A DNA stretch of 64,000 nt from Candidatus Methanomethylicaceae archaeon. GTDB taxonomy: Archaea > Thermoproteota > Methanomethylicia > Methanomethylicales > Methanomethylicaceae. The DNA is taken from positions 1 through 64,000 of the forward strand of contig JACTUC010000006.1 of NCBI GenBank assembly GCA_015660995.1. Direction: 5' to 3'. Shown here piece by piece: positions 1 to 13,062 of this stretch. The position numbers and the translations under genes are program-made. The notes below the pieces were generated by a model that did no database searches, was not told the DNA's origin, and saw only the letters and a program-made list of their open reading frames with translations. Numbering within the stretch: the stretch's first letter is position 1; every line of letters begins with the position of its first letter.

Positions 1-185
1 AGCCAAAAAGGACCACCCCAAGCCACCACTACTTTTCTTAGAGACTCCATCAAAGCTTCGTCGCGCGATCCGGCGATATAAATTCCTTCAGCTCCGAAGG
101 CTCTCGCTACCAAGCAAACGTGCGTAGTGATCCTCTTGTCCCTTATTGGGCGGTGACCAAGTCTCAAGACCACTATTTTCCTCAC
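1..185 (-). CDS. trm56: tRNA ribose 2'-O-methyltransferase aTrm56 (5' part, runs off window)
   Basis: This is the amino-terminal 61 codons of a gene that continues past base 1. The translation begins [13 protein letters not shown] and continues through [20 protein letters not shown], which matches the archaeal aTrm56 family (SPOUT-type methyltransferase that methylates the ribose of C56 in the tRNA T loop). The GTG start at 185 overlaps the hflX TGA stop by four bases, so the two are translationally coupled. The gene is the last visible member of an mbf1-hflX-trm56 operon. The catalytic SPOUT knot lies outside the window, so the assignment rests on the amino terminus and the strongly conserved LGHRP segment. 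Confidence 0.8.
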
Positions 186-1462
186 TGTTTTTCCCCAATG
201 TTGGATTGCATTTCTGCTCCGCCCATACCTTCCGCCATACGCTTAAACCTCTGCAGGGAAGAGGGATCACCTTCGATCTCCAAATCAACATAATTACCGC
301 TGTAATTGATATAAGTAACATTTGCGAATTGAAAAGCCCACGATACTAAGGAATTGACATTTTTACCAAGTGGGATTTTCAGTTTCATTTGCTCGTATCT
401 GGGGAGAACATTTGCTAACTCTTCCAACAAGGCAGGAATGCCTTCGCCAGTCTTCGCCGAGATCTTGATTGGTTTAACACCAAAAGCCTTGAAGACCTGA
501 TCTTCGAGGGGACGAGTATTGGAAGCCATATCAGCTTTGTTCATTACAGGAATAACTGAGCTGTTGAATACCCCAATCTCATTGAGAGTGGAGAGGCAAG
601 TTCGGAGCTTCTTGGTGAACTCTGGAGCAGAGTCGGACGAATCTAATACCAGAATTACCTTGTCCGCAAGCGTTACCTCCTCCAGCGTGGAGTAAAAAGA
701 TTCAACCAGGAGATGTGGAAGGTTGTCAATGAACCCGACAGTGTCAGATAGCAAGATCTTCCTATTCGAGAGAGCTAAGGCGCGCGTTGTTGTTGAGAGT
801 GTGGTGAATAGGTTTTCCCCAACTGGAAGAGATTCTTTGGCGAGGTAATTGAATAGTGTCGTTTTTCCAGCAAATGTATAGCCGCTCAAAGCGATGGTAA
901 AGAGAGCAGCCTTTTTCCTTCTTCGGCGGTTTGTAGACTTTAGCTTGCTTATTTCCTCGAGTTTCCTTCTTAGGTATGATATTCGCTTCTTTATCATCAA
1001 TGAGTAGACATCTGCTTGATATTTTCCTAGACCGTGAAAACCAGGTAATTCTCCTAGCTTTGCCATTTTCACATTTTCTTTAGCCATGGGAAGTTCATAT
1101 TGCAGTTTGGCGAGTTCTATTTGATATTTCGCTTCTTTTGTTCCAGCGCGTTTGGTGAATATCTCCAAAATAAGCTGGAAACGGTCTATTACTTCCGTTC
1201 TAAACAGTTTAGTAAGATTGTACCTTTGAATCGGTTTGAGCCTATTGTTGAAAATTATTTTTAAGGGCATTAGAGAAGCTGTTGCTTCTGCGATCTCCTC
1301 AGCTTTGCCTCTTCCAAGGCAATAGGAAGAGTCGTATTCCCTGATTTGCCGAAACGTGTTTAGCACAGAGTAACCGGCAGCTTCAGCAAGTTGCTGCAGT
1401 TCAGGGAGACCGCTCTTGCCCGCACTGGGTCTGACCTCGATAAGAACTGCATTGTTTTCCAA
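182..1462 (-). CDS. hflX: GTPase HflX
   Basis: This is a ribosome-associated translational GTPase of 426 residues, the usual family length. The amino-terminal HflX domain carries the glycine-rich GRGKAEEI segment near residue 50. A basic coiled-coil linker ([20 protein letters not shown]) precedes the G domain. The G1 motif is GYTFAGKTT, near residue 195; many HflX proteins have GYTNAGKST here. G3 is [10 protein letters not shown] and G4 is NKAD. In bacteria HflX splits stalled 70S ribosomes, and a similar role is inferred here. It sits 4 bases downstream of mbf1 and overlaps trm56 by 4 bases, in a translation-themed operon. Confidence 0.93.
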
Positions 1463-1466
1463 CTTG

Positions 1467-1970
1467 CTAATCTGTTCGACCCTCCTTTAGGATGGCCACA
1501 TCACCCAAAGTCAAGTTGCTGGGCGTTGGAGTTGATCCTTTAATAGAGCTGTCGACCAGTGCTTTGAGCGAAATCTTTAGCAGGTGTTCGATCTTCAACG
1601 TGAGCTCGGAGGTTGGGTACATTTCTCCCGATTCAATCCTGCGGATTACCGAGTCCTTCTCCCCCAACTTCCTAGCTAAATCTTCTCTTGTCATCCTAGC
1701 ACCTTCGCGAGCCCTACGGATTACATCTCCAAAACCATTAACAAGAACGAACTCTTCGAAACGGTCCCTTTTTCGTGGCTTGGGCGGGACTATCTTTATT
1801 GGACCAGGCTTTGGAATTGCCCTTTCTATCTTGGACGCAGTTCTACGATCCACTGCAACCCCGAATCTTGAACACTCCTCACATACTATAAGCAGGGAAC
1901 GCTCAATCGAAATCTGAGAAGGCCTACCTACAATCTTCTTGCCACAAATCTCACAATTCATAAAAGCCAC
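1467..1970 (-). CDS. mbf1: Archaeal multiprotein bridging factor 1 (MBF1), Zn ribbon plus HTH
   Basis: This 167-residue protein has an amino-terminal zinc ribbon (CEICGK near residue 6 and CEEC near residue 30) followed by a Cro/CI-type helix-turn-helix at about residues 85-140 (VIRRAREGARMTREDLARKLG, then VIRRIESGEMYP). This is the archaeal MBF1 layout; eukaryotic MBF1 is a transcription coactivator, and archaeal MBF1 has been linked to the ribosome and translation. It is divergent from pan and heads an operon with hflX and trm56. The start is the ATG at 1970, just upstream of MNCEICGK; a second in-frame Met lies three codons in. Confidence 0.88.
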   Translation of the reverse strand: MAFMNCEICGKKIVGRPSQISIERSLLIVCEECSRFGVAVDRRTASKIERAIPKPGPIKIVPPKPRKRDRFEEFVLVNGFGDVIRRAREGARMTREDLARKLGEKDSVIRRIESGEMYPTSELTLKIEHLLKISLKALVDSSIKGSTPTPSNLTLGDVAILKEGRTD

Positions 1971-1984
1971 CGTTCTGATTGTAA

Positions 1985-1990
1985 TTTAAA
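1985..1990 (+). promoter_or_regulatory. Putative TATA element for pan
   Basis: A TTTAAA stretch lies about 27-32 bases upstream of the pan GTG start in the short mbf1/pan divergent region. This is the right spacing for a leaderless archaeal transcript. No Shine-Dalgarno sequence precedes the GTG. Confidence 0.4.
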
Positions 1991-2016
1991 GCAGGTTAGT
2001 CTAAAATATATCTCTG

Positions 2017-3213
2017 GTGACCCACTTGGCTACCAATAGCGAAGTGAAGGATGACGGGATAGCAATTCCGATGCAGCTCAGAAAGCTTGAGCAGCGCATT
2101 TTAGAGCTAGAGGCAGAGCGAAGAGATTGGTACTTCGAAAGGGACAGGCTTCAGAGGGAGACTCAGATACTGCGTAGTGAGATTGAGAAACTAACTGTTC
2201 CGCCTCATATCGAGGGAAATGTCACGGATATACTTGAAGACGGGAGGGCTGTTGTGAAAAGCTCAACAGGTCCTTCGCTCGTGGTCAACGTCATGAAATC
2301 AGTGGATATGAGCAAGCTTATTCCTGGAAAAAGAGTTGCCCTCAGTCAAAGAAATTTTGCGGTATTGGAGGTTTTACCGGATTCCCTTGATATGTACATA
2401 AAGGCTATGGAGGTTGTCGAGACCCCAAAGGTTTCTTATTCAGATATTGGCGGGCTCGACTACCAGATCATGGAGATAAGGGAGCTTGTTGAGCTGCCAT
2501 TGTTAAGGCCCGAGGTCTTTGAAAAAGTAGGTATAGACCCTCAGAAAGGTGTGCTTCTACATGGCCCACCAGGTTGCGGTAAGACACTGCTTGCAAAGGC
2601 TGTCGCCAGCGAGACCAAAGCCACCTTCATTAAGGTCGTTGCGTCGGAGCTCGTGCAGAAGTACATTGGAGAGGGAGCCAGGATGGTCAGGGAACTGTTC
2701 CAGATGGCCAGAACAAGGGCGCCCAGCATAGTATTCATCGATGAGATAGACGCTGTTGGGGGAAGACGAGCGGACATAAGCATAAGCGGTGAGAGGGAAG
2801 TTCAAAGGACACTCCTGCAGCTGCTGAGTGAGATGGACGGTTTTAGCGTTAGGGGGGATGTAAAGATCATAGGAGCGACCAACAGGATAGACCTCCTTGA
2901 TCCAGCACTGCTGAGGCCGGGCAGGTTCGACAGAGTGATAGAGATACCCTCACCAGACCAGGTTGGAAGAGAGGTAATATTCAAGATTCATGCAGCCAAG
3001 ATGAATGTTGCGCCAGATGTGAAGGTGAGCGAGCTTGCTAGGATGACAGAGGGGGCCACCGGAGCAGACATAAAAGCAGTGTGTACGGAGGCAGGAATGT
3101 TTGCCATCCGTGGAGAGAGGGACACAATAACCAAGGGTGATTTCGTCAAAGCTATAGAGAAGACCTTAAAGAAGGGGGAGCCAAAGGGTGGCGCCAGCGG
3201 CACCTACTTGTAG
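2017..3213 (+). CDS. pan: Proteasome-activating nucleotidase (PAN)
   Basis: This 398-residue AAA ATPase is homologous to the 26S proteasome Rpt subunits; it unfolds substrates and feeds them to the 20S core. An amino-terminal coiled coil (about residues 18-62) is followed by an OB domain and the AAA module: Walker A GPPGCGKT near residue 184, Walker B IVFIDEID near residue 238, sensor and Arg-finger region LLRPGRFDR near residue 295. The carboxyl end is TYL, close to the HbYX docking motif although the first position is Thr rather than a large hydrophobic residue. The start is GTG. The gene is followed closely by a PUA gene and NAC, a common archaeal neighbourhood. Confidence 0.95.
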
Positions 3214-3232
3214 AGAAATAATCGGCGAGGAT

Positions 3233-3682
3233 TTGACTAGGATAAGGGCTGTAGCGGACTACCAGTTCAGAGAAGGGGCAGGCGTAGCGCTCTTCCCAAA
3301 AGGTGTAAAGGCGATAAAATCGAGAAAGACCGGAAAAGTCAAGGCAATATATTACAATAACGAACTATTAGCCACGTTGAAACCGTCAGATGGTTTTCTG
3401 GCTCTCAGCTTGGATGGAGGACGCAGGCTTTGCGCGGAGATCTGCCCACCTAGGTACAGAGTCGTGGTCCAAGAAGAGGTCGCAGAATTCATAAGAAGTG
3501 GAAGGAACCTGTTCGCAAAGCACGTTGTTGAAGCTGACCCACAAATAAGACCAGGAGAAGAGATTCTAATAACAGACTCGAAGGATAATATTTTGGCAGT
3601 TGGAAGAGCCGTTCTCGCAGGATTTGAGATGAAACGTTTTAAAATAGGGTTGGCCGCAAGAGTAAGGAAGGGAATAGATTAG
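3233..3682 (+). CDS. PUA domain RNA-binding protein
   Basis: This small archaeal protein of about 149 residues has a carboxyl-terminal PUA domain (RYRVVVQEEVAEFIRSGRN, then IRPGEEILITDSKDNILAVGRA). PUA domains bind structured RNA, so a role in tRNA or rRNA modification or ribosome quality control is plausible, but the substrate is unknown. I prefer the TTG at 3233, preceded by a GGCGAGGA ribosome binding site, because family members begin just before the RxxADYQF segment. A GTG at 3188 would add 15 residues and overlap pan. The gene lies between pan and nac in an apparent operon. Confidence 0.8.
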   Translation: MTRIRAVADYQFREGAGVALFPKGVKAIKSRKTGKVKAIYYNNELLATLKPSDGFLALSLDGGRRLCAEICPPRYRVVVQEEVAEFIRSGRNLFAKHVVEADPQIRPGEEILITDSKDNILAVGRAVLAGFEMKRFKIGLAARVRKGID

Positions 3683-3698
3683 GCAGGAGCATCAGCAT

Positions 3699-4043
3699 AT
3701 GAAGAGAATCAACCCAAGAGAAGCGAAAAGGATGATGCAGAAAATGGGGATGAATATGGAGGAACTGGCAGGCGTTCTGAAAGTGACAATAAGCCTCAGA
3801 GGGAAAGACCTAATCATTCCCGATCCTCAAGTCACAGTCATGAGGGTCAGCGGCGAGACAATCTACCAGATCATGGGTGAGGCGATCGAGGAAAAGGTAG
3901 GGACCCAAGTAAAGATAGAGATATCGGACGAAGATGCTCAATTGGTTTCAGCTCAGACAGGTGTCAGTATTGAAGTGGCTAAGAAAGCTCTTGAGAGTGC
4001 AAATGGGGATCTGGCGCAGGCGATAATGCTTCTAAAAGGGTAG
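3699..4043 (+). CDS. nac: Nascent polypeptide-associated complex protein (NAC)
   Basis: This 114-residue protein is the archaeal homodimeric NAC, a ribosome-bound chaperone. It has the NAC beta-domain (residues about 12-70, LKVTISLRGKDLIIPDPQVTVM) and a carboxyl-terminal UBA domain (residues about 75-114, DEDAQLVSAQTGVSIEVAKKALESANGD). It starts 16 bases after the PUA gene and closes the pan-PUA-nac operon. The next gene is convergent, one base away, leaving no room for a separate terminator. Confidence 0.93.
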   Translation: MKRINPREAKRMMQKMGMNMEELAGVLKVTISLRGKDLIIPDPQVTVMRVSGETIYQIMGEAIEEKVGTQVKIEISDEDAQLVSAQTGVSIEVAKKALESANGDLAQAIMLLKG

Positions 4044-4044
4044 C

Positions 4045-6330
4045 CTAGATAGTGAAACGTTGGTTATTTATTGCGAAGTCCCTCTCTTCACTGCTCCAAG
4101 CTCTAGAGGATTTGTACCTTCCGAAGGCCTTTGTATAATAAACAGAACGGTTCCCATCGTAACCGCACCTTGGGCACTTGTTTCGAAAGCCATAGGCGAT
4201 TGACTTGCACTGGAAACAGTAAGTATAGTCTCTTGTGAATGTAAGGAGACCTATGCCTGTCGTTTCGATCATTCTTTTCGTGTAGTTAGCAAGGACATCT
4301 TCTGTTGGGAATGGTTCATCGAGACGGATGTCGAACAGATGGCCGCCCTTTGTCAGCTGCTGGAAGATCTCTTCCATTTTAAGACGTGTCTTCAATGGAA
4401 CAGCAGTAGTTAGTGGGAGATTTGAGTGTTCGGTGTACGGAGTTGCTGTTTTTGCCTTGAGATAACCTGCTGCCACATCCAAATTCGTAAGACGCGATGC
4501 AGCAGGCTCGAAGGTAATGCTAGATGAAAGAATACGCTGGGATGGCTGGCACTGGGTGGCGTATTCATCCATTAGGCTGACAATTTTTATTGCCAACTTG
4601 AGGGCGTCTTCGCTGTCCTCCAGGTCGGAGCCGGTGTGGTACTTTACTGCTTCAGGCAGACCAACGTAGCTCACGATCCCGGGGGAATCCTTGAGCCTGA
4701 AGTATGGATTGCCATCGATGGTCTCTTTGTACAGGGGCAGAAGATTGTCTGACTGTATGCGGTCTTCGAGTATTTGCCTCTTTATTGAAAGAGCTTCTTT
4801 GCAAAGGTCAAGCATTTCACGCAGGTGTTCCATAAGCTTATCGTCGTCGCCTTTCGATTCATAGGAGATCCTTGGCAAGTTTATTGTAATGTTGTCCAAG
4901 GATCCGACTCTCATGGTTCCACTCTCCCAGTCCTTCCAGCCAGAATCGACGCGCGAGAGGGTGGAGTTGTAGAAGACATTTTCCTGTTGCCAAGGAAGGG
5001 TGTTATTGATAAAATACACCGTGCCCCATTTCTTCGATAGCTCGTATGCCTGCACCAAGCATTCTCTAGCATCATTGGTCAACAGAGCCTTTTTCCTCAT
5101 TTTGACAAATATCGCAGGGTTCAGCAATGGTTTTGACGCGCCATCTGGCTCTTCTAAGACCTCTAGAAGGATCTCGAGTAACTTGAGAGCCTGCTCGTGG
5201 TAATCGGCATAGAGACCTGAATCCTTGTCAGGACCGACAGCTTTCACTTTTTCAAGGAATTGCGGTATTTCCAGTTCCACGTTGAAGGCAATGGTCGATC
5301 CAGCGATGCCATTGAATTTCGCGTTTAGGGCGTAAAGGAACTCTCTAAGCCCCAAACGAATCTCCGCATCCTTGAGATTCTTGAGATATGGTGCGAGAAA
5401 GATGTTGAAAAATCCAACGGATTGGGAGTTGGAAACCAAGGAAGACGATGAGGAGAGAAGAGAATTTACAGTGTAGAGTGCCCCAGTAAAGGTCTTTGGG
5501 GCAAAGTGGACTGGTTCCGACAGGCCAGTACCATCTGCGGGTATCTTGCCCTCTAGGATTGGACGAAGATCATGTTGGAGATCAGCGGGCCTGAGGACCC
5601 AGTAGTTGGCATTATTGATGTGAATGGCACCACTCAGGTGGGCATCAGCAATAGTTCTCGGGAGAACCTTAAGAAGCATGTACTCCTCAAGAACGGCATC
5701 ACCGGCTCGGGCGTGAACCCTCTCTGGTGAAGGGTAATCCTTGAATGCCGAACTCTTGATTGTAGTTGTAACGTCATAGACTGGCTGCCCTAAGCGAGTA
5801 AGCGAGTGGCGGTATTCTTCCAGACCCTTCTCCAGAAGTATGGCATTAACAAATTCCCTGATCAGTGCAGCCGTGAGGTACCTCACCTGGGGTTTCTTTA
5901 GACGGTCCTCGGCTTCTTTGGAGATCGATTCCGCGAGCTTTCTGGGCACATTTGCCTCCCGCATCAAAGCATCAACAATCTTCTTCCTGTCAAATGGTTC
6001 TATGGTTAGACTGGAGGTTCGGACTAGCATGTCGCCCTTCTTTCGTCTAAGGGCGTCCTCGACCCCGTAGATGAAGTTGGCGACATCCACCCCGAATAGA
6101 GTTAGGTAATATTTACCCGAAGATTCGTCGGCAACAATAAGTTCTGCATCAGTTAGCATTCTGAGATGATAGCCAAACTTACCTGCGTCGGTCTTTGGGT
6201 TCATGTTCAGCTTTTCCATAATCTCAGTAAAGGAAAGGGGACCCTCTCTGCTTATCAGCTTCAAAACTTCTGCCCTTACCTCATTGGACAGAGCCGAGAG
6301 TATAGACTCCAACAGATTTTTTGATGACAA
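4045..6330 (-). CDS. HTH / ATP-cone / NrdD-like fusion protein (probable ribonucleotide reductase paralogue)
   Basis: This 761-residue protein has three parts: an amino-terminal ArsR-like winged helix (about residues 8-70, VRAEVLKLISREGPLSFTEI); an ATP-cone (about 100-185); and a long anaerobic ribonucleotide reductase (NrdD)-like domain containing GTMRVGSLDNITINLPRI. A zinc site (CFQC...CPRC) lies near the end. Aligned by eye with NrdD, the thiyl-radical cysteine position reads TLSRV with Ser459, and the glycyl-radical region reads KAFGRY with Gly737, not the usual RVxGY. It may therefore be a pseudoenzyme or nucleotide-sensing regulator rather than an active reductase. No nrdG is adjacent. 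A TATAAA on the minus strand (6374-6379) suggests its own promoter. Confidence 0.75.
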   Translation of the reverse strand: MSSKNLLESILSALSNEVRAEVLKLISREGPLSFTEIMEKLNMNPKTDAGKFGYHLRMLTDAELIVADESSGKYYLTLFGVDVANFIYGVEDALRRKKGDMLVRTSSLTIEPFDRKKIVDALMREANVPRKLAESISKEAEDRLKKPQVRYLTAALIREFVNAILLEKGLEEYRHSLTRLGQPVYDVTTTIKSSAFKDYPSPERVHARAGDAVLEEYMLLKVLPRTIADAHLSGAIHINNANYWVLRPADLQHDLRPILEGKIPADGTGLSEPVHFAPKTFTGALYTVNSLLSSSSSLVSNSQSVGFFNIFLAPYLKNLKDAEIRLGLREFLYALNAKFNGIAGSTIAFNVELEIPQFLEKVKAVGPDKDSGLYADYHEQALKLLEILLEVLEEPDGASKPLLNPAIFVKMRKKALLTNDARECLVQAYELSKKWGTVYFINNTLPWQQENVFYNSTLSRVDSGWKDWESGTMRVGSLDNITINLPRISYESKGDDDKLMEHLREMLDLCKEALSIKRQILEDRIQSDNLLPLYKETIDGNPYFRLKDSPGIVSYVGLPEAVKYHTGSDLEDSEDALKLAIKIVSLMDEYATQCQPSQRILSSSITFEPAASRLTNLDVAAGYLKAKTATPYTEHSNLPLTTAVPLKTRLKMEEIFQQLTKGGHLFDIRLDEPFPTEDVLANYTKRMIETTGIGLLTFTRDYTYCFQCKSIAYGFRNKCPRCGYDGNRSVYYTKAFGRYKSSRAWSSEERDFAINNQRFTI

Positions 6331-6384
6331 ACCCCAGCACCAAAGCTTAGATTGGAGGGTTGTATCTAAAAAGTTTATAGATGG

Positions 6385-6780
6385 CTACCTGAAGGCAGGC
6401 CTGAATTTCATGGCGTATTGGATGATACCAGAATCGCCGTCCTCCGATATCTTTCGGAACACAGCTTCCAGGGACATCCCGATACTCACGTCGTTGACAG
6501 GTATGTCAGTTATTTGCGTTGTGATCCTGGTACCATCCTCGAGTTCCACAATTCCTAGTACGAACGGCGCCATTTTTACAAAATTGGATGGAGGGCTGCG
6601 AACAATGCTGAAGGTAAGTAGCTTGCCCTTCTCAGGAAGGGTGTAAGGCTCGAGTAAAACCCCTCCGCACTTATCGCACCTTAATCTCTCAGGGTAGATA
6701 ACGTGCCCACACTTTGAGCATTTTTGCGCTTCTAGCCGAGTTCTTCCGGGAATCTCTCTCCAATATCTTGGAACCGACAT
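6385..6780 (-). CDS. DUF35 OB-fold/Zn-ribbon protein of the thiolase-HMG-CoA synthase complex
   Basis: This 131-residue protein has a rubredoxin-like zinc ribbon (CSKCGHVIYPERLRCDKCG, about residues 21-39) followed by an OB fold (LLTFSIVRSPP...). It belongs to the DUF35 family that, in methanogens, bridges acetoacetyl-CoA thiolase and HMG-CoA synthase so that the endergonic thiolase product is channelled. The gene overlaps the thiolase by one base and lies in the same operon as HMG-CoA synthase, which supports the same role here. Confidence 0.9.
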   Translation of the reverse strand: MSVPRYWREIPGRTRLEAQKCSKCGHVIYPERLRCDKCGGVLLEPYTLPEKGKLLTFSIVRSPPSNFVKMAPFVLGIVELEDGTRITTQITDIPVNDVSIGMSLEAVFRKISEDGDSGIIQYAMKFRPAFR

Positions 6781-7937
6781 TATCGAGACCTTCTTAAGAT
6801 TGTCACAAAAGTGCTTGATCCCGAGCCACCAATGTTCTGGGCCAGACCGATCTCGGCGTCCGGGACCTGTGTTTTCCCAGCATCGCCCATTAGTTGCATT
6901 GCCACTTCGACAATCTGATATGCTCCAGTGGCTCCAACTGGATGCCCCCTTGACTTCAGCCCGCCACTTGGGTTGACAGCAACAATGCCACCTGGCTCAA
7001 AAGCCCCTTCGGCCAGCAATTTGTTAAACTTTCCCTTCTCAGAGAACCCAAGATCCTCAAGAGATATAGCGCCTGTTATTGTGAAGGTGTCATGAATTTC
7101 TGCAACATCTACGTCGCGAGGAGTGATCTTTGCCATTTTGTATGCCCTATCGGCTGCGATTACTGTGGAATTAAATGACAGAAGATCGGATCTGGAGGAA
7201 ACGTTTATTGTGTCTGTTGCCCCAGCTAACCCGCTTATCTCGACATAATTATCCGAATACTTGGATGCCTCTTCTAGAGGACATAGGATCAATGCAGCGG
7301 CTCCGTCACCGACAGGGGCACAGTCGTACAGCGTTATTGGGTCAGCGATCTTGTCAGAGCGAAGGACCATTTCCCTAGTGATCTCAAATGGCAGTTGGGC
7401 GTATGGGTTCTTGGATCCGTTTTTATGCATGAGTACAGCAAAGTCAGCAAATGCATCTCTTGGAGTGTGATGGATGTGCATGTAGTGGTTCATTAGAAGA
7501 GCGTTAAGGCTAACAAAGCTTGAGCCATAGAATAGCTCGTATTCTGCATCAGCAGCCTTGCCCAGCGAGAGGGTTGTGTCCCTGCCCACGCCGTCAGAAA
7601 GTTTCTCAATTCCACCAGTCATTACAACATCGTACATTCCTGACGCGACAGCTGTATAGGCTGCGAGTACTGCAGCTGCGCCAGAGCCACATGCTGCCTC
7701 CACACGGAAAGCAGTTGCAGGGGTAATGCAGAGGTAATCAGCTAGTAAAGCGCCGATATTATTTTGATCTGAGAGATCTGAGGCGCACATGTTGCCTATT
7801 ATTAAAGCGTCCAGATTGGTGACCTTGGAGTTATTTAAGGCGGCCTTAGCAGCGTCACCGAATAGTCCCCTAAGGGACTTCTTCCAATGCTTATCAACTT
7901 TCGTTAGTCCGTAGTTAATGATGGCTACTCTTCTCAT
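6780..7937 (-). CDS. Acetyl-CoA C-acetyltransferase (archaeal thiolase, mevalonate pathway)
   Basis: This 385-residue archaeal thiolase condenses two acetyl-CoA to acetoacetyl-CoA. The nucleophilic cysteine lies in VEAACGSGAAAV near residue 83, the HDTFT segment (AEIHDTFTITG) is present, and the carboxyl catalytic motif is NPSGGLKSRGHPVGATG near residue 325. It lies 11 bases downstream of HMG-CoA synthase and overlaps the DUF35 gene by one base. The three products probably form a single complex. The SCP2-thiolase-like family also has members acting on other acyl-CoAs; the operon decides the assignment. Confidence 0.92.
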   Translation of the reverse strand: MRRVAIINYGLTKVDKHWKKSLRGLFGDAAKAALNNSKVTNLDALIIGNMCASDLSDQNNIGALLADYLCITPATAFRVEAACGSGAAAVLAAYTAVASGMYDVVMTGGIEKLSDGVGRDTTLSLGKAADAEYELFYGSSFVSLNALLMNHYMHIHHTPRDAFADFAVLMHKNGSKNPYAQLPFEITREMVLRSDKIADPITLYDCAPVGDGAAALILCPLEEASKYSDNYVEISGLAGATDTINVSSRSDLLSFNSTVIAADRAYKMAKITPRDVDVAEIHDTFTITGAISLEDLGFSEKGKFNKLLAEGAFEPGGIVAVNPSGGLKSRGHPVGATGAYQIVEVAMQLMGDAGKTQVPDAEIGLAQNIGGSGSSTFVTILRRSR

Positions 7938-7948
7938 AATAATCCACC

Positions 7949-9022
7949 TTAAAAGACAATCTTCTTCCTGAATTTTGTGTAAATGGCATAGTCAATGTTC
8001 TGCTTTCTCTTGATGTAGTCCATAACTGTCGGAGCGACATCGCGCTTCGACATTACACCATCATCTACCAAAAAGCTGAATGCGTCGCTCCCTGCGCCTG
8101 AACCAAAACTCGCTACCAGCACTCTGTCTCCTGGTGACGCTATGTCTAGAACGGCGGAGAAGCCTGTTACTGATGAGCCCGCGTACAGGTTTCCGATATA
8201 TGGAACCAGCAAGCCGGCTTCCACCTGTTCTTTCTTGAAACCAAGAGATCGCGCTGCTCTTATGGGGAATTTTCCATTTGGCTGATGGAAGACAGCGTAC
8301 TTGAAGTCGCTTGGCTTCAAGGATAGCTCGTCGAGCAACATCTTTGTTGAAGAGATTATGTGGGCAAAATATGCTGGCTCCCCAGTGAATGCTTCAGCGT
8401 GAGACGGGTAATCCTGCTTTGGCCTTCTCCAGAAGTCGGGAGTGTCAGTTACGTAGGACACAGAACCTTCCAGAAGTGCAACCGGCTCCTTCACCTTTTC
8501 CTTTTGCCCTACTATCAAAGCAGTCCCTCCGCAACCCGCAGAGAATTCTAGCGGATCTGCAGGTGCTCCTTGTGCTGTGTCGGCGCCTATTGCTAATCCA
8601 TAATTGATCATGCCAGAGCCGACGAGACCGATACTACATTGGAGGCATTCAGTCCCAGCCTTGCAAGCAAATTCCATATCTGCCGATAGCACCCTTGGCG
8701 TTGCGCCTATTGCCTCAGCTACAATTGAACCCGTGGGCTTAACTGCGTAGGGCTTTGATTCTGATCCAACAAAAACTGCTCCGAGTTCCTTTGGGCTTAT
8801 CTTGGCACGGCTTAGTGCATTCTTCGATGCCTCTACAGCTATTGTGGCTACGTCCTCGTCCATTCCAGCAACGGCTTTTTCGTCGATCAATAAGTCGTCC
8901 CGGAAGTGGCGAGATGATTTTCCCCAGATCCTAGCAATCTCCTCTACGGTTATACGATAAAGCGGAATATAGGATCCCCATCCAGAGATCACTACATCGC
9001 TCGTCGGTTTCATCGAACTCAC
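7949..9022 (-). CDS. mvaS: Hydroxymethylglutaryl-CoA synthase
   Basis: This 357-residue archaeal HMG-CoA synthase condenses acetoacetyl-CoA with acetyl-CoA, the second step of the mevalonate pathway that feeds archaeal lipid isoprenoids. The acyl-accepting cysteine lies in [11 protein letters not shown], near residue 115. Other conserved parts are FHQPNGKFP near residue 247 (catalytic His) and the GSGAGSDAF carboxyl segment. It is the first gene of the HMGS-thiolase-DUF35 operon and follows the COG1709-type regulator on the same strand. Confidence 0.93.
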
Positions 9023-9094
9023 TCTTCCCAGTAGTCAAAAAACATCTATATTAGGTCTTCGATCTTTGACTTATTATAGTTCGACTATTGACGA

Positions 9095-9808
9095 TTATCC
9101 CCTTAGCGAGTGTAGCGATTTTATCAGATCAGTGACAGACGGTTTTTTGGCAAGAATCAAGGGAAGACGTTCAGACTTAGCTAACTCAACGGCTATCTTG
9201 TCCAAGTTCGTAACACCGTGTATTATGACTGCAGCAGGTTTAAGGGGCGTAACCCGGATTGCAACCATTGGTGATCTTCCAGTGGAAACTTTTGTGAAGA
9301 TGAGAGCGCGTTCGGATGTTGTGCCAAGGAGTTGCATGAAGTCTGAGCCCGACATGGTCAAGATTGCTTTAATGCTGTCTACTACGGTGTAGCCAAGTAT
9401 CTTCTTGTTCGCCAGATAATCACAGGCGAGAAAATCGCCATCAACGGCCTTTGCTATTTCTGTGAGGGATATGGGTGATGGAAACTCATAGAGGTCAAGT
9501 ATGGCATCTGAAGAAGCCCTTACTAACGAAGAGAACTGCTTCAAAACTCTACCTTCATTAGCGCTATCTATCTCGATGAGCGACTGGACAAAGCGTCTTA
9601 CGAATGTGGCTCCGGGGTTCTTTCTCCGCCCACCCTCATAATCGCTAATTACGGACGGAGAGATTTCCAGCTTGCCAGAGATCTCAAGCTGAGTAATTCC
9701 AAAGACCTCCCTCCAGCGCCTCATTATCTCACCATGGTTGTTGGAGACTATAATCTCGCCACTTATCCTTTTCATAAGAAGCTCGCTTACCGTCTCCACC
9801 ATTGCCAC
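9095..9808 (-). CDS. HTH transcriptional regulator upstream of mevalonate genes (COG1709-like)
   Basis: This 237-residue protein has a Cro/CI-type helix-turn-helix (about residues 28-65, RRWREVFGITQLEISGKLEISPSVISDYEGGRR) and a carboxyl domain of about 130 residues (from GYTVVDSIKAIL) that probably binds a ligand. Family members occur beside HMG-CoA synthase in several archaea. Here it lies 72 bases upstream of HMG-CoA synthase on the same strand, so it is a candidate regulator of this operon. The ligand is unknown. Confidence 0.8.
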   Translation of the reverse strand: MAMVETVSELLMKRISGEIIVSNNHGEIMRRWREVFGITQLEISGKLEISPSVISDYEGGRRKNPGATFVRRFVQSLIEIDSANEGRVLKQFSSLVRASSDAILDLYEFPSPISLTEIAKAVDGDFLACDYLANKKILGYTVVDSIKAILTMSGSDFMQLLGTTSERALIFTKVSTGRSPMVAIRVTPLKPAAVIIHGVTNLDKIAVELAKSERLPLILAKKPSVTDLIKSLHSLRG

Positions 9809-9850
9809 CGCCCAATCCTATGGGCAACCTGGTTAAAAACAATTTACCAC

Positions 9851-9863
9851 AAAAAGTATAAAG
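9851..9863 (+). promoter_or_regulatory. TATA box for tRNA-Pro
   Basis: AAAAAGTATAAAG lies about 31-43 bases upstream of the tRNA-Pro 5' end, at the distance expected for an archaeal TATA box with a few bases of leader. Confidence 0.55.
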
Positions 9864-9893
9864 ATGGAGCATTTTCATTCTAATGTGCCTCTA

Positions 9894-9968
9894 GGGGCTG
9901 TAGGCTAGCTTGGTCTAGACTGTCAGGCTCGGGCCCTGGTGACCCCGGTTCAAATCCGGGCAGCCCCA
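9894..9968 (+). tRNA. tRNA-Pro (CGG anticodon)
   Basis: The acceptor stem GGGGCTG pairs with CAGCCCC. The anticodon stem TCAGG/CCTGG encloses the seven-base loop CTCGGGC, giving anticodon CGG. The T arm is CCCGG-TTCAAAT-CCGGG and the discriminator base is A. There is no intron. CC follows the discriminator in the genome. Confidence 0.95.
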
Positions 9969-9989
9969 CCATCATTCATCCTATATCAA

Positions 9990-11384
9990 TTAGACAAGCA
10001 AACCTGCTTTCATCAATATTCCTCTTCCGGCCAGAAGACCATTTGCGGCTGCTATTACGATTCCTCTCGATAAGCCAACGCCGTCCCCTGCGACAAAGAG
10101 GTTCTCCACAGGCGTCTCCAAGTTTTTGTTTACTTGGAATTTGTTCGCTGAGAATTTGATCTCTGGAGCGTAAAGTAAGGTTGAAGAACTTGCTACCCCT
10201 GGAATAATCTCATCCAGTTTTTCAAGTCCTTCCAGGATGTCTGTAACAATCCTGTGCGGCATCGCCATGGCAATGTCCCCTGGCGTGGCGGACCTCAACG
10301 ATGGTAGCACGTTGCTGTGCGCAATTCTGACCCATGTGGAGCGCCTGCCCATCCGCAGGTCGCCGAGCCTTTGAATTAATGGCTCACCCCCGCCTAAGAT
10401 CGTAGATTGCTGAACCACGGATCTTCCATATGCCGTAGTGTCCTCGATGGGTTCCGTTAAGGCAACTCTAACAAGAAAGGCAAAGTTGCTGTTGTCGGAG
10501 GGGTTGTCGGTCATTGAATGGCCATTAACTGCTACTATGCCATCGTATACTTCTTTTACAACAAACCCTTCATGATTGACGCAGAATGTTCTAACAAAAT
10601 CATCATAGGTGTCTGTATAAATGTGGAACTTTGGATCGCGGTTGACTGCAATTACAGGTGCCATTACAAAAGCCGGGACTTCTACCCTAACTCCGATATC
10701 GATAGGCTCATGTCTAGTCGGTATGGCGAGCCTTCGAGCCACCTCAGCAGCCCAGTTAGCCCCAACGCGTCCCGGCGCCATCAGTATGTATTTTGGGCTC
10801 ATAGAAGAATCGTCGTCAAAAATTATTTTACCGGGTCGGATGTCCTTCACATGGGTATCCAGAAGGAATTTGACACCCATCTTCTCGAGATCTTCCTTGA
10901 AGTTTTTTATTACCTTGGGTGCCCCGTCGCTACCCATATGGCGCTGTGTGATAGGGATGAATTTTATCCCTTCAGATGCTGCCCGCCTCTGAAGGTCTAC
11001 AGCATCATCAACATCTCCCCTGCATACTTCCTTAGGAGCCCCATATTTTAGAAAAACAGAGTCAACGTAATTCACTAGATCCCAAGCCTCTTTATCGGAG
11101 GTGCAGAACTCCATTAAATCGCCGCCAATGTCAGGCCGTAGGTTCAAAAGACCATCGGAAAGAGTACCGGCACCACCGACTCCACTCATTATGCTGCATA
11201 TGCGGCAATTAGTGCACATCTTATAATTGTGAACCGGGCATTTCCTGTTGTCAACATCATAACCTTGGTCGATTATCAACGTGGAAAGCTTTCCCTTTCC
11301 CTTGGTGGCTATCTCGTAGGCTGCAAACATGCCCGCGGGTCCAGCGCCAACAATTACTACGTCGTGCTCCAATTGAGACCCCAC
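9990..11384 (-). CDS. FAD-dependent dehydrogenase, COG2509-like
   Basis: This 464-residue flavoprotein has an amino-terminal dinucleotide-binding motif VIVGAGPAGMFAAYE. A cysteine-rich segment follows (CPVHNYKMCTNCRICSIMSGVGG, about residues 49-71), and the carboxyl FAD motif is NLFVAGDGVGLSRGI near residue 430. The layout matches the uncharacterised FAD-dependent dehydrogenases of COG2509. The substrate is unknown. The start is GTG at 11384; the SWIM gene is divergent with 64 bases between them. Confidence 0.8.
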   Translation of the reverse strand: MGSQLEHDVVIVGAGPAGMFAAYEIATKGKGKLSTLIIDQGYDVDNRKCPVHNYKMCTNCRICSIMSGVGGAGTLSDGLLNLRPDIGGDLMEFCTSDKEAWDLVNYVDSVFLKYGAPKEVCRGDVDDAVDLQRRAASEGIKFIPITQRHMGSDGAPKVIKNFKEDLEKMGVKFLLDTHVKDIRPGKIIFDDDSSMSPKYILMAPGRVGANWAAEVARRLAIPTRHEPIDIGVRVEVPAFVMAPVIAVNRDPKFHIYTDTYDDFVRTFCVNHEGFVVKEVYDGIVAVNGHSMTDNPSDNSNFAFLVRVALTEPIEDTTAYGRSVVQQSTILGGGEPLIQRLGDLRMGRRSTWVRIAHSNVLPSLRSATPGDIAMAMPHRIVTDILEGLEKLDEIIPGVASSSTLLYAPEIKFSANKFQVNKNLETPVENLFVAGDGVGLSRGIVIAAANGLLAGRGILMKAGLLV

Positions 11385-11448
11385 GAAGCTTTCAATTGCA
11401 GAGACAGTTATTTATCTTCTTGCCCGTAAATTATTTAGAGGATTTGTA

Positions 11449-11844
11449 ATGGGTGACGATCTTAACGGTGTGCTTGACGAGATCGAGAAACAGGGCAGCA
11501 TGATGGAAGAGACAAGGGAGGCACTCCAGAAAAAATACGGATTAAGATTTGGTCAAGCAGAAAAATTGGTCGCTTCGATGGCAGTAAAGAAGTATGTCTT
11601 CAAGCCAAGTGGCAAGATAGTCTGGATAGTTGTAGGAAGGGAAAAAGAATATTTCGTTATCCCAAAACTATACTGCCAATGCGACGATTTTTACATAAAC
11701 GTAGTCATAAGGAGGAAGATGGATTTTTGTTACCACCTCTTCGCACAGGCTATCGCAGAGAAGCGAGTGAGCTATGAAATCTTTAATGTCCCAGACAGTG
11801 ATTTTAGAAGGCTTAATAATGAGTGGAAGAAACAAAGCGTGTGA
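11449..11844 (+). CDS. SWIM zinc-finger protein (SWS1/ZSWIM7-like)
   Basis: This 131-residue protein contains a SWIM-type zinc finger, CxCx(n)CxH, visible as YCQCDDFY...DFCYHLF at about residues 77-103. It is preceded by a helical segment with EKLVASMAVKKYVFKPSGK. Small archaeal SWIM proteins are related to eukaryotic SWS1, which works with RAD51 paralogues in homologous recombination. The gene directly upstream of RPA on the same strand fits that role, but no recombinase lies in this window, so function is inferred. Confidence 0.75.
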   Translation: MGDDLNGVLDEIEKQGSMMEETREALQKKYGLRFGQAEKLVASMAVKKYVFKPSGKIVWIVVGREKEYFVIPKLYCQCDDFYINVVIRRKMDFCYHLFAQAIAEKRVSYEIFNVPDSDFRRLNNEWKKQSV

Positions 11845-11958
11845 GTTGTTGCTATGGATTTTGTTTTGCTCACGGATATAATTGATGTTATTGCAATTAC
11901 CCTTTTAGGGGTTACAACAACTCATAATCACTTTTGACAGAGAATAGCGGCGACAAAG

Positions 11959-13062
11959 ATGAGCGAGCTCGAAGGGCTTATTTCAATACTCGTTAGAAAA
12001 TCGGGGCTCTCTACTTCTGAAGTCCTCACAAAGATTGAGGAGAAGAAGGAAAGCCTAGGGCACCTAATAAATGACGATGTGGCTGTTCGGCTGGTCGCCA
12101 GGGATCTTGGCATAGCTGTTTCAGAGGGGGGACCTTCAAAACCAATCGTCAAAATTGAAGATCTCGTGGCAAATATCAATAACGTCACCATCAGTCTGAC
12201 CATTGAGCGAAGCGGTACTATAAGGGAATTCGCCAAGAAGGATGGTACGACGGGACGACTTGCCAAGCTGATCGTTTCCGATGATACGGGGAGTGCGGCC
12301 CTTGTGTTATGGGATGACAAGACAGCATATTCGCAGCGCCTGAGAGTTGGCGCAAAGGTTTCCGTCTATTCAGCGTATACAAAAGCAGGGCTGAAAGGCG
12401 ATGTTGAAGTGCACATGGGAAATAGGAGCAGGCTTGAGATCATTGAGGAGGGACCCGCAAATGGATGGGAGGATGAAGGCAACATGCACAGGGGTCGGAT
12501 CTTGAGGGCATATGATCCCATAAGCTTCAAGCGAAAGGATGGAAGCGAGGGGAGGGCAGTTGCTTTTCAAATAAACCACAGTCTGGGAGTGACGAGGGTA
12601 TTGGTTTGGGACCCATCGGACACTTTGATTGCTGAATTGATCGCGGGTGCAGCTATCGAGATTTCAGGCGGGGTAATGAAGACAGACATTAACGGAGCGA
12701 AGGAGCTCCATATCAACGATGAGAGCTCAATTCAGATTAATAGAGAGGATGTTGACCCTCCTCAGATCGAGGCTGTGAGGTTGGCGGACGTTAAGCCTGA
12801 CATGTCAGAGTTGACCGTGGAGGGGATAGTCGAGGGGGAATTTGATCTTTCAACGACTTACAGTGGCAAGACCTATGCGAGACTCCTGTTAAGGGATGGG
12901 GAGGCAGCGCTTCCTGTTATTTTTTGGAATGACAAGGCTTTGATGATCAAGAGGGTTGCGAAGGCGGGCGCTATTCTGAGGATAGAGGGATGCTACGCAA
13001 AGATTGGCCCACAAGGACTTGAGATTAACGTCAATAAATGGAGCAGAACCAAGGCAGAGTAG
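11959..13062 (+). CDS. Single-stranded DNA-binding protein (RPA-like, multiple OB folds)
   Basis: This 367-residue protein has three OB folds after a short helical amino terminus: about residues 75-150 (VTISLTIERSGTIREFAKKDGTTGRLAKLIVSD), 175-250 (RGRILRAYDPISFKRKDGSEG) and 275-360 (LTVEGIVEGEFDLSTTYSGKTYARLLLRD). This is the architecture of archaeal RPA large subunits, which coat single-stranded DNA in replication and repair. No zinc finger is seen. It follows the SWIM gene and precedes Elf1. Confidence 0.88.
   Translation: MSELEGLISILVRKSGLSTSEVLTKIEEKKESLGHLINDDVAVRLVARDLGIAVSEGGPSKPIVKIEDLVANINNVTISLTIERSGTIREFAKKDGTTGRLAKLIVSDDTGSAALVLWDDKTAYSQRLRVGAKVSVYSAYTKAGLKGDVEVHMGNRSRLEIIEEGPANGWEDEGNMHRGRILRAYDPISFKRKDGSEGRAVAFQINHSLGVTRVLVWDPSDTLIAELIAGAAIEISGGVMKTDINGAKELHINDESSIQINREDVDPPQIEAVRLADVKPDMSELTVEGIVEGEFDLSTTYSGKTYARLLLRDGEAALPVIFWNDKALMIKRVAKAGAILRIEGCYAKIGPQGLEINVNKWSRTKAE

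Follow-up and report, generated by a model that had tools for sequence, protein, structure and literature searches.

Introduction

In bacteria, the transcription of ribonucleotide reductase (RNR) genes is controlled by the repressor NrdR, a short protein that joins a DNA-binding zinc ribbon to an ATP-cone and that is found in genomes with different RNR classes (PMC9110341). The supply of RNR sets dNTP pools and the mutation rate; however, NrdR is reported to be rare in archaea (PMC9110341), and how archaea control their RNR genes is not described in the papers that we found. ATP-cones are also present in the class III RNR NrdD (TIGR02487, PF13597), which uses a thiyl-radical Cys in the finger loop, a second catalytic Cys and a glycyl-radical loop, and in Prevotella NrdD basic residues at the start and in the last helix of the cone bind the phosphates (PMC11226230).

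Here, we analysed an open reading frame from a Candidatus Methanomethylicaceae archaeon, which judged by its relatives belongs with Candidatus Methanomethylicota (Verstraetearchaeota). The gene is located in a 64,000-nucleotide stretch of contig JACTUC010000006.1 (assembly GCA_015660995.1, positions 1 to 64,000), referred to as the window. A preliminary description based on the sequence alone had proposed that it encodes a fusion of an ArsR-like winged helix, an ATP-cone and an NrdD-like domain without the thiyl cysteine, and had inferred a dNTP-sensing transcription regulator that evolved from an RNR. Our results strongly support the pseudoenzyme part of this proposal, while the regulator part is supported by genomic context, with DNA binding and dNTP sensing remaining inferences. 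In the following, we use REG for this protein and its homologues.

Results

Domain architecture and predicted structure of REG

The REG gene of the window (4045-6330, minus strand) has a TTG start and encodes 761 amino acids. Profile searches revealed Pfam matches above the cut-offs for an N-terminal HTH (PF24038, PF12840 and PF01022, residues 9-86), an ATP-cone (PF03477, E=2e-7, residues 100-172) and NRDD (PF13597, E=4e-70, residues 199-746). We assign a winged helix-turn-helix domain of the ArsR/HTH_20/DUF7347 type to residues 8-90 (6061-6309, minus strand), the ATP-cone to residues 101-190 (5761-6030, minus strand) and an NrdD-like barrel to residues 196-747 (4090-5745, minus strand), which includes a C-terminal zinc ribbon with Cys705, Cys708, Cys719 and Cys722 (4159-4224, minus strand). 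An alignment-based AlphaFold2 model had a mean pLDDT of 87 and showed the winged-helix order of helices and strands at the N-terminus, and the best Foldseek hits of the model were all solved NrdD structures (E down to 6e-25). The architecture is not due to chance, since 28 relatives share it, and 44 of 44 scanned homologues contain all three domains. The winged helix is present in all of 106 homologues.

Loss of catalytic residues

Next, we compared REG with the NrdD of Candidatus Mnemosynella biddleae, which has all catalytic residues and a downstream NrdG. In this near-gapless alignment (751 aligned residues, 278 identical, 37% identity), the radical Cys461 of the enzyme corresponds to Thr457 of REG (T4 Cys290; 4960-4962, minus strand), Cys251 corresponds to Asp250 (T4 Cys79; 5581-5583, minus strand), and Gly757 corresponds to Gly737, although RITGYY reads KAFGRY (remnant of the glycyl-radical loop, 4108-4137, minus strand). 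The four zinc cysteines are kept. The preliminary description is thus corrected in three respects: the radical Cys falls on Thr457, two residues before the Ser459 that had been proposed, the second catalytic Cys is lost too, and the glycine of the radical loop is still present in this protein, though not in most of the family. The alignment around the finger loop is uncertain by one or two residues between clades, but REG of the window has no Cys at all between residues 424 and 510.

Across the 106 homologues, the T4-Cys79 column is never Cys, compared to 32/32 in NrdD, and the radical Gly is present in 23, compared to 32/32. The T4-Cys290 column is Cys in 13 homologues, all of them Bathyarchaeal; however, this column is variable (S/F/C/L/T and others), only one of the 13 has Gly in the loop, and in no sequence are all three residues present. 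Many homologues end straight after the zinc ribbon and lack the glycyl loop altogether. REG of the window scores 243.6 bits against TIGR02487, below the equivalog cut-off of 326.35. An active RNR with unusual chemistry, in which another residue serves as radical carrier, could be considered because of Gly737 and the 13 Bathyarchaeal cysteines, but appears very unlikely in view of these losses and of the intact enzyme encoded in the same genome.

Indeed, the genome encodes a canonical NrdD (723 aa, with CFQCCAYSF and SRITGYY; TIGR02487 530.8 bits) followed by NrdG (NrdD and NrdG together at 5522-8490, NrdG at 7690-8490, of a separate locus, L031), whereas no NrdG was found among the window ORFs of positions 1-12000. 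We found no class I or class II RNR in the genome and only two ATP-cones, in REG and in this NrdD, hence no NrdR. So REG is a paralogue beside a probably essential RNR. In four relatives (genomes G021, G040, G033 and G023), the canonical NrdD reading frames comprise 1022-1737 codons with split matches, which suggests large in-frame insertions such as inteins.

Phylogeny and distribution

In a FastTree analysis of the NRDD core alone, all 106 HTH-bearing sequences formed one clade apart from NrdD and without an enzyme inside, albeit with modest support (0.67). The nearest enzyme in the tree is the Mnemosynella NrdD, the N-terminus of which is a second ATP-cone and not an HTH; REG may have arisen when a winged helix took the place of the outer of two tandem cones. 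Members of the clade occur in Methanomethylicia, Bathyarchaeia, Culexarchaeia, Asgard groups and ammonia-oxidising archaea (AOA). The latter were identified by Archaeal_AmoA (PF12942) in 5/5 tested, while a search with the AMO family PF02461 gave nothing anywhere. In AOA, the C-terminal half has drifted furthest and some members have lost the zinc ribbon. REG was not detected in six genomes of the family, but the neighbouring mevalonate gene DUF35 is missing from the same MAGs, so the locus was probably not assembled. Some REG genes contain single in-frame stops (TAG in genomes G110, G190 and G135, TGA in G044; see also locus L084); TAG in Bathyarchaeia might be recoded, or the gene is decaying. 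One genome (G039) contains, in addition to REG and NrdD, a second, very divergent HTH-NrdD-like paralogue (L047:3857-6098, minus strand).

Conservation has shifted from the catalytic core to the ATP-cone

We then compared the conservation of REG and of the true NrdD in the same six genomes. REG shows identities of 77% in the HTH, 90% in the ATP-cone, 60% in the core and 45% in the tail, while the true NrdD shows 79% in the cone, 83% in the core and 82% in the tail. This crossed pattern is what a loss of catalysis with retained sensing predicts. R104, E111, F113, K117, T153, R174 and R179 of the cone are near-invariant. The K-R pair of bacterial ATP-cones is R-T-S in REG (KRDG reads RTSxL), but we rejected this as a sign of lost nucleotide binding, since active archaeal NrdDs also carry VRTS and R104, R174 and R179 are near-invariant. 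That REG binds ATP or dATP is inferred.

Genomic linkage to RNR genes

In the window, REG is not located beside nrdDG but between mevalonate genes and NAC. Genes for a DUF35-type zinc protein, thiolase and HMG-CoA synthase (6385-9022, minus strand) lie directly upstream on the same strand, and the same block precedes REG in three Jord/Freyarchaeia loci (L066-L068). HflX, MBF1, PUA and NAC genes (window positions 182-4043; loci L158 and L159) flank REG tail-to-tail in Methanomethylicales (with PAN) and, reordered and without PAN, in a further family (f16), which points to old synteny.

Elsewhere, however, REG is repeatedly linked to RNR genes. In 25 of 25 AOA it lies directly upstream of, and on the same strand as, class II nrdJ, and among 94 other loci with REG in view, nrdD lies within 3 kb downstream in 12 and nrdJ in 3, with a small redoxin gene often located between REG and nrdD. 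Linkage to two RNR classes fits a regulator of genes better than a subunit of one enzyme. An alternative, in which the dead NrdD forms a heteromer with the working RNR and controls it allosterically, with the winged helix serving as a protein-protein or dispensable module, would be in line with the retention of the whole NrdD fold including the zinc ribbon and with the adjacency to nrdD in 12 loci. We consider it unlikely, since the neighbour in 28 loci is class II NrdJ, with which an NrdD-type dimer is not expected, since the winged helix is present in all homologues and better conserved than the core, and since a conserved promoter box exists (see below).

In about 30 Bathyarchaeal and Asgard loci, including most Bathyarchaeia without a linked RNR, REG is tail-to-tail with pyrB, usually followed by pyrI; in one locus (L170) it is next to pyrI. 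Together with the position downstream of mevalonate genes in Methanomethylicales and Jord/Freyarchaeia, this could indicate a nucleotide-sensing transcription factor that controls mainly other genes (pyrimidine synthesis, mevalonate, replication), RNR being only a historical neighbour. This also appears improbable, since pyrB is convergent and shares no promoter with REG, which excludes it as an operon partner, and in view of the conserved position beside nrdJ in 25/25 AOA. In addition, the order REG, nrdD and convergent pyrB in four loci (L069, L077, L081 and L164) suggests that the RNR linkage was there first, and nrdD may have been lost or moved in the others.

Candidate operators

To identify potential binding sites, we compared upstream regions. 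The nrdDG promoters of 18 Methanomethylicales species share a 26-bp box (the nrdDG box, TATCTATTTTTTTAAATTACGCACTC), TATCWATTTTTTTAAATnAnTnACTC, a few bases upstream of the TATA region in otherwise diverged DNA. With up to 3 mismatches it occurs once in this genome, upstream of nrdD. With a family-wide pattern it was found in 17 of 22 genomes, nearly always once and at nrdD, compared to one hit of a reversed-pattern control; of the five genomes without a hit, four had no nrdD in our search and one has a more diverged box. A matrix made from these boxes scored above the 99th percentile of control upstream regions in 12 of 77 REG promoters of other clades (p=6e-5), with CTCTAATTTTTTAAACT prominent in Bathyarchaeia. 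However, T-rich core promoters may account for part of this, and related species are not independent. In AOA, the REG-nrdJ intergenic region carries a conserved GTAnCGGTGTYAA element, mostly followed by TTGA. Upstream of the REG gene of the window we noted a promoter-like element, ATCTATAAACTTTTTAGAT (6364-6382, minus strand), an ATCTA/TAGAT inverted repeat around a TATA-like core, with related T-rich elements in orthologues, and the promoter region of redoxin-nrdD in a further REG-bearing genome (locus L048) contains the inverted repeat TTATCTAAA...TTTAGATAA. The box sequences differ between clades, and the nrdDG box could also be read by another factor; since it is T-rich and close to the TATA element, part of its conservation may reflect the core promoter.

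Discussion

From these results we conclude that REG is most likely a nucleotide-sensing transcription regulator of RNR genes made from a dead class III RNR, an interpretation in which we are fairly confident although DNA binding, ligand and sign of regulation are inferred from sequence and context and not from binding or expression data. According to this model, the protein dimerises, the winged helix binds the box upstream of the RNR promoter (and in some lineages its own promoter), and ATP versus dATP in the ATP-cone, perhaps with effector or substrate nucleotides in the retained RNR fold, changes its oligomeric state and DNA affinity. High dATP would then shut RNR transcription off, as NrdR does in bacteria. 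The box lies just upstream of, and next to, the TATA region, so repression by blocking TFB/TBP is the more likely sign, but activation is not excluded. More tentatively, the whole dead RNR could be the sensor, in that the retained specificity and active sites read individual (d)NTPs besides the ATP-cone, so that one protein would measure the size and balance of the nucleotide pool the way RNR itself does and transmit it to RNR promoters of either class II or class III across several archaeal lineages; this is possible, but less likely than not.

The family represents a concrete candidate for the control of RNR genes in archaea and would be a case of an ancient enzyme turned into the regulator of its own pathway. 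We found no earlier description of an HTH-ATP-cone-NrdD protein in the open papers searched, although subscription papers and database notes were not covered and an unnoticed annotation may exist, and two large RNR family analyses contain no mention of helix-turn-helix or winged-helix fusions. Our results also imply that these genes can be miscalled as active class III RNRs, including in genomes of aerobic archaea.

Compared to NrdR, REG likewise joins an ATP-cone to a DNA-binding part and occurs in genomes with different RNR classes, with RNR genes as inferred targets, but its predicted DNA-binding part is a winged helix, its only zinc ribbon is the C-terminal one of NrdD, and it carries a whole dead NrdD; in our reading it is not related to NrdR beyond the ATP-cone. 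Compared to ArsR/HTH_20/DUF7347 winged-helix regulators, it shares the HTH domain, but has no metal- or usual ligand-binding partner domain and is fused to an RNR. The Mnemosynella NrdD, its nearest enzyme, has the catalytic cysteines, RITGYY, a downstream NrdG and two ATP-cones where REG has a winged helix and one cone. REG is clearly descended from NrdD, with which it shares the fold, the ATP-cone and the zinc ribbon, but both catalytic cysteines are lost, the glycyl loop is degraded or deleted, a winged helix has been added, and NrdG is linked to another gene.
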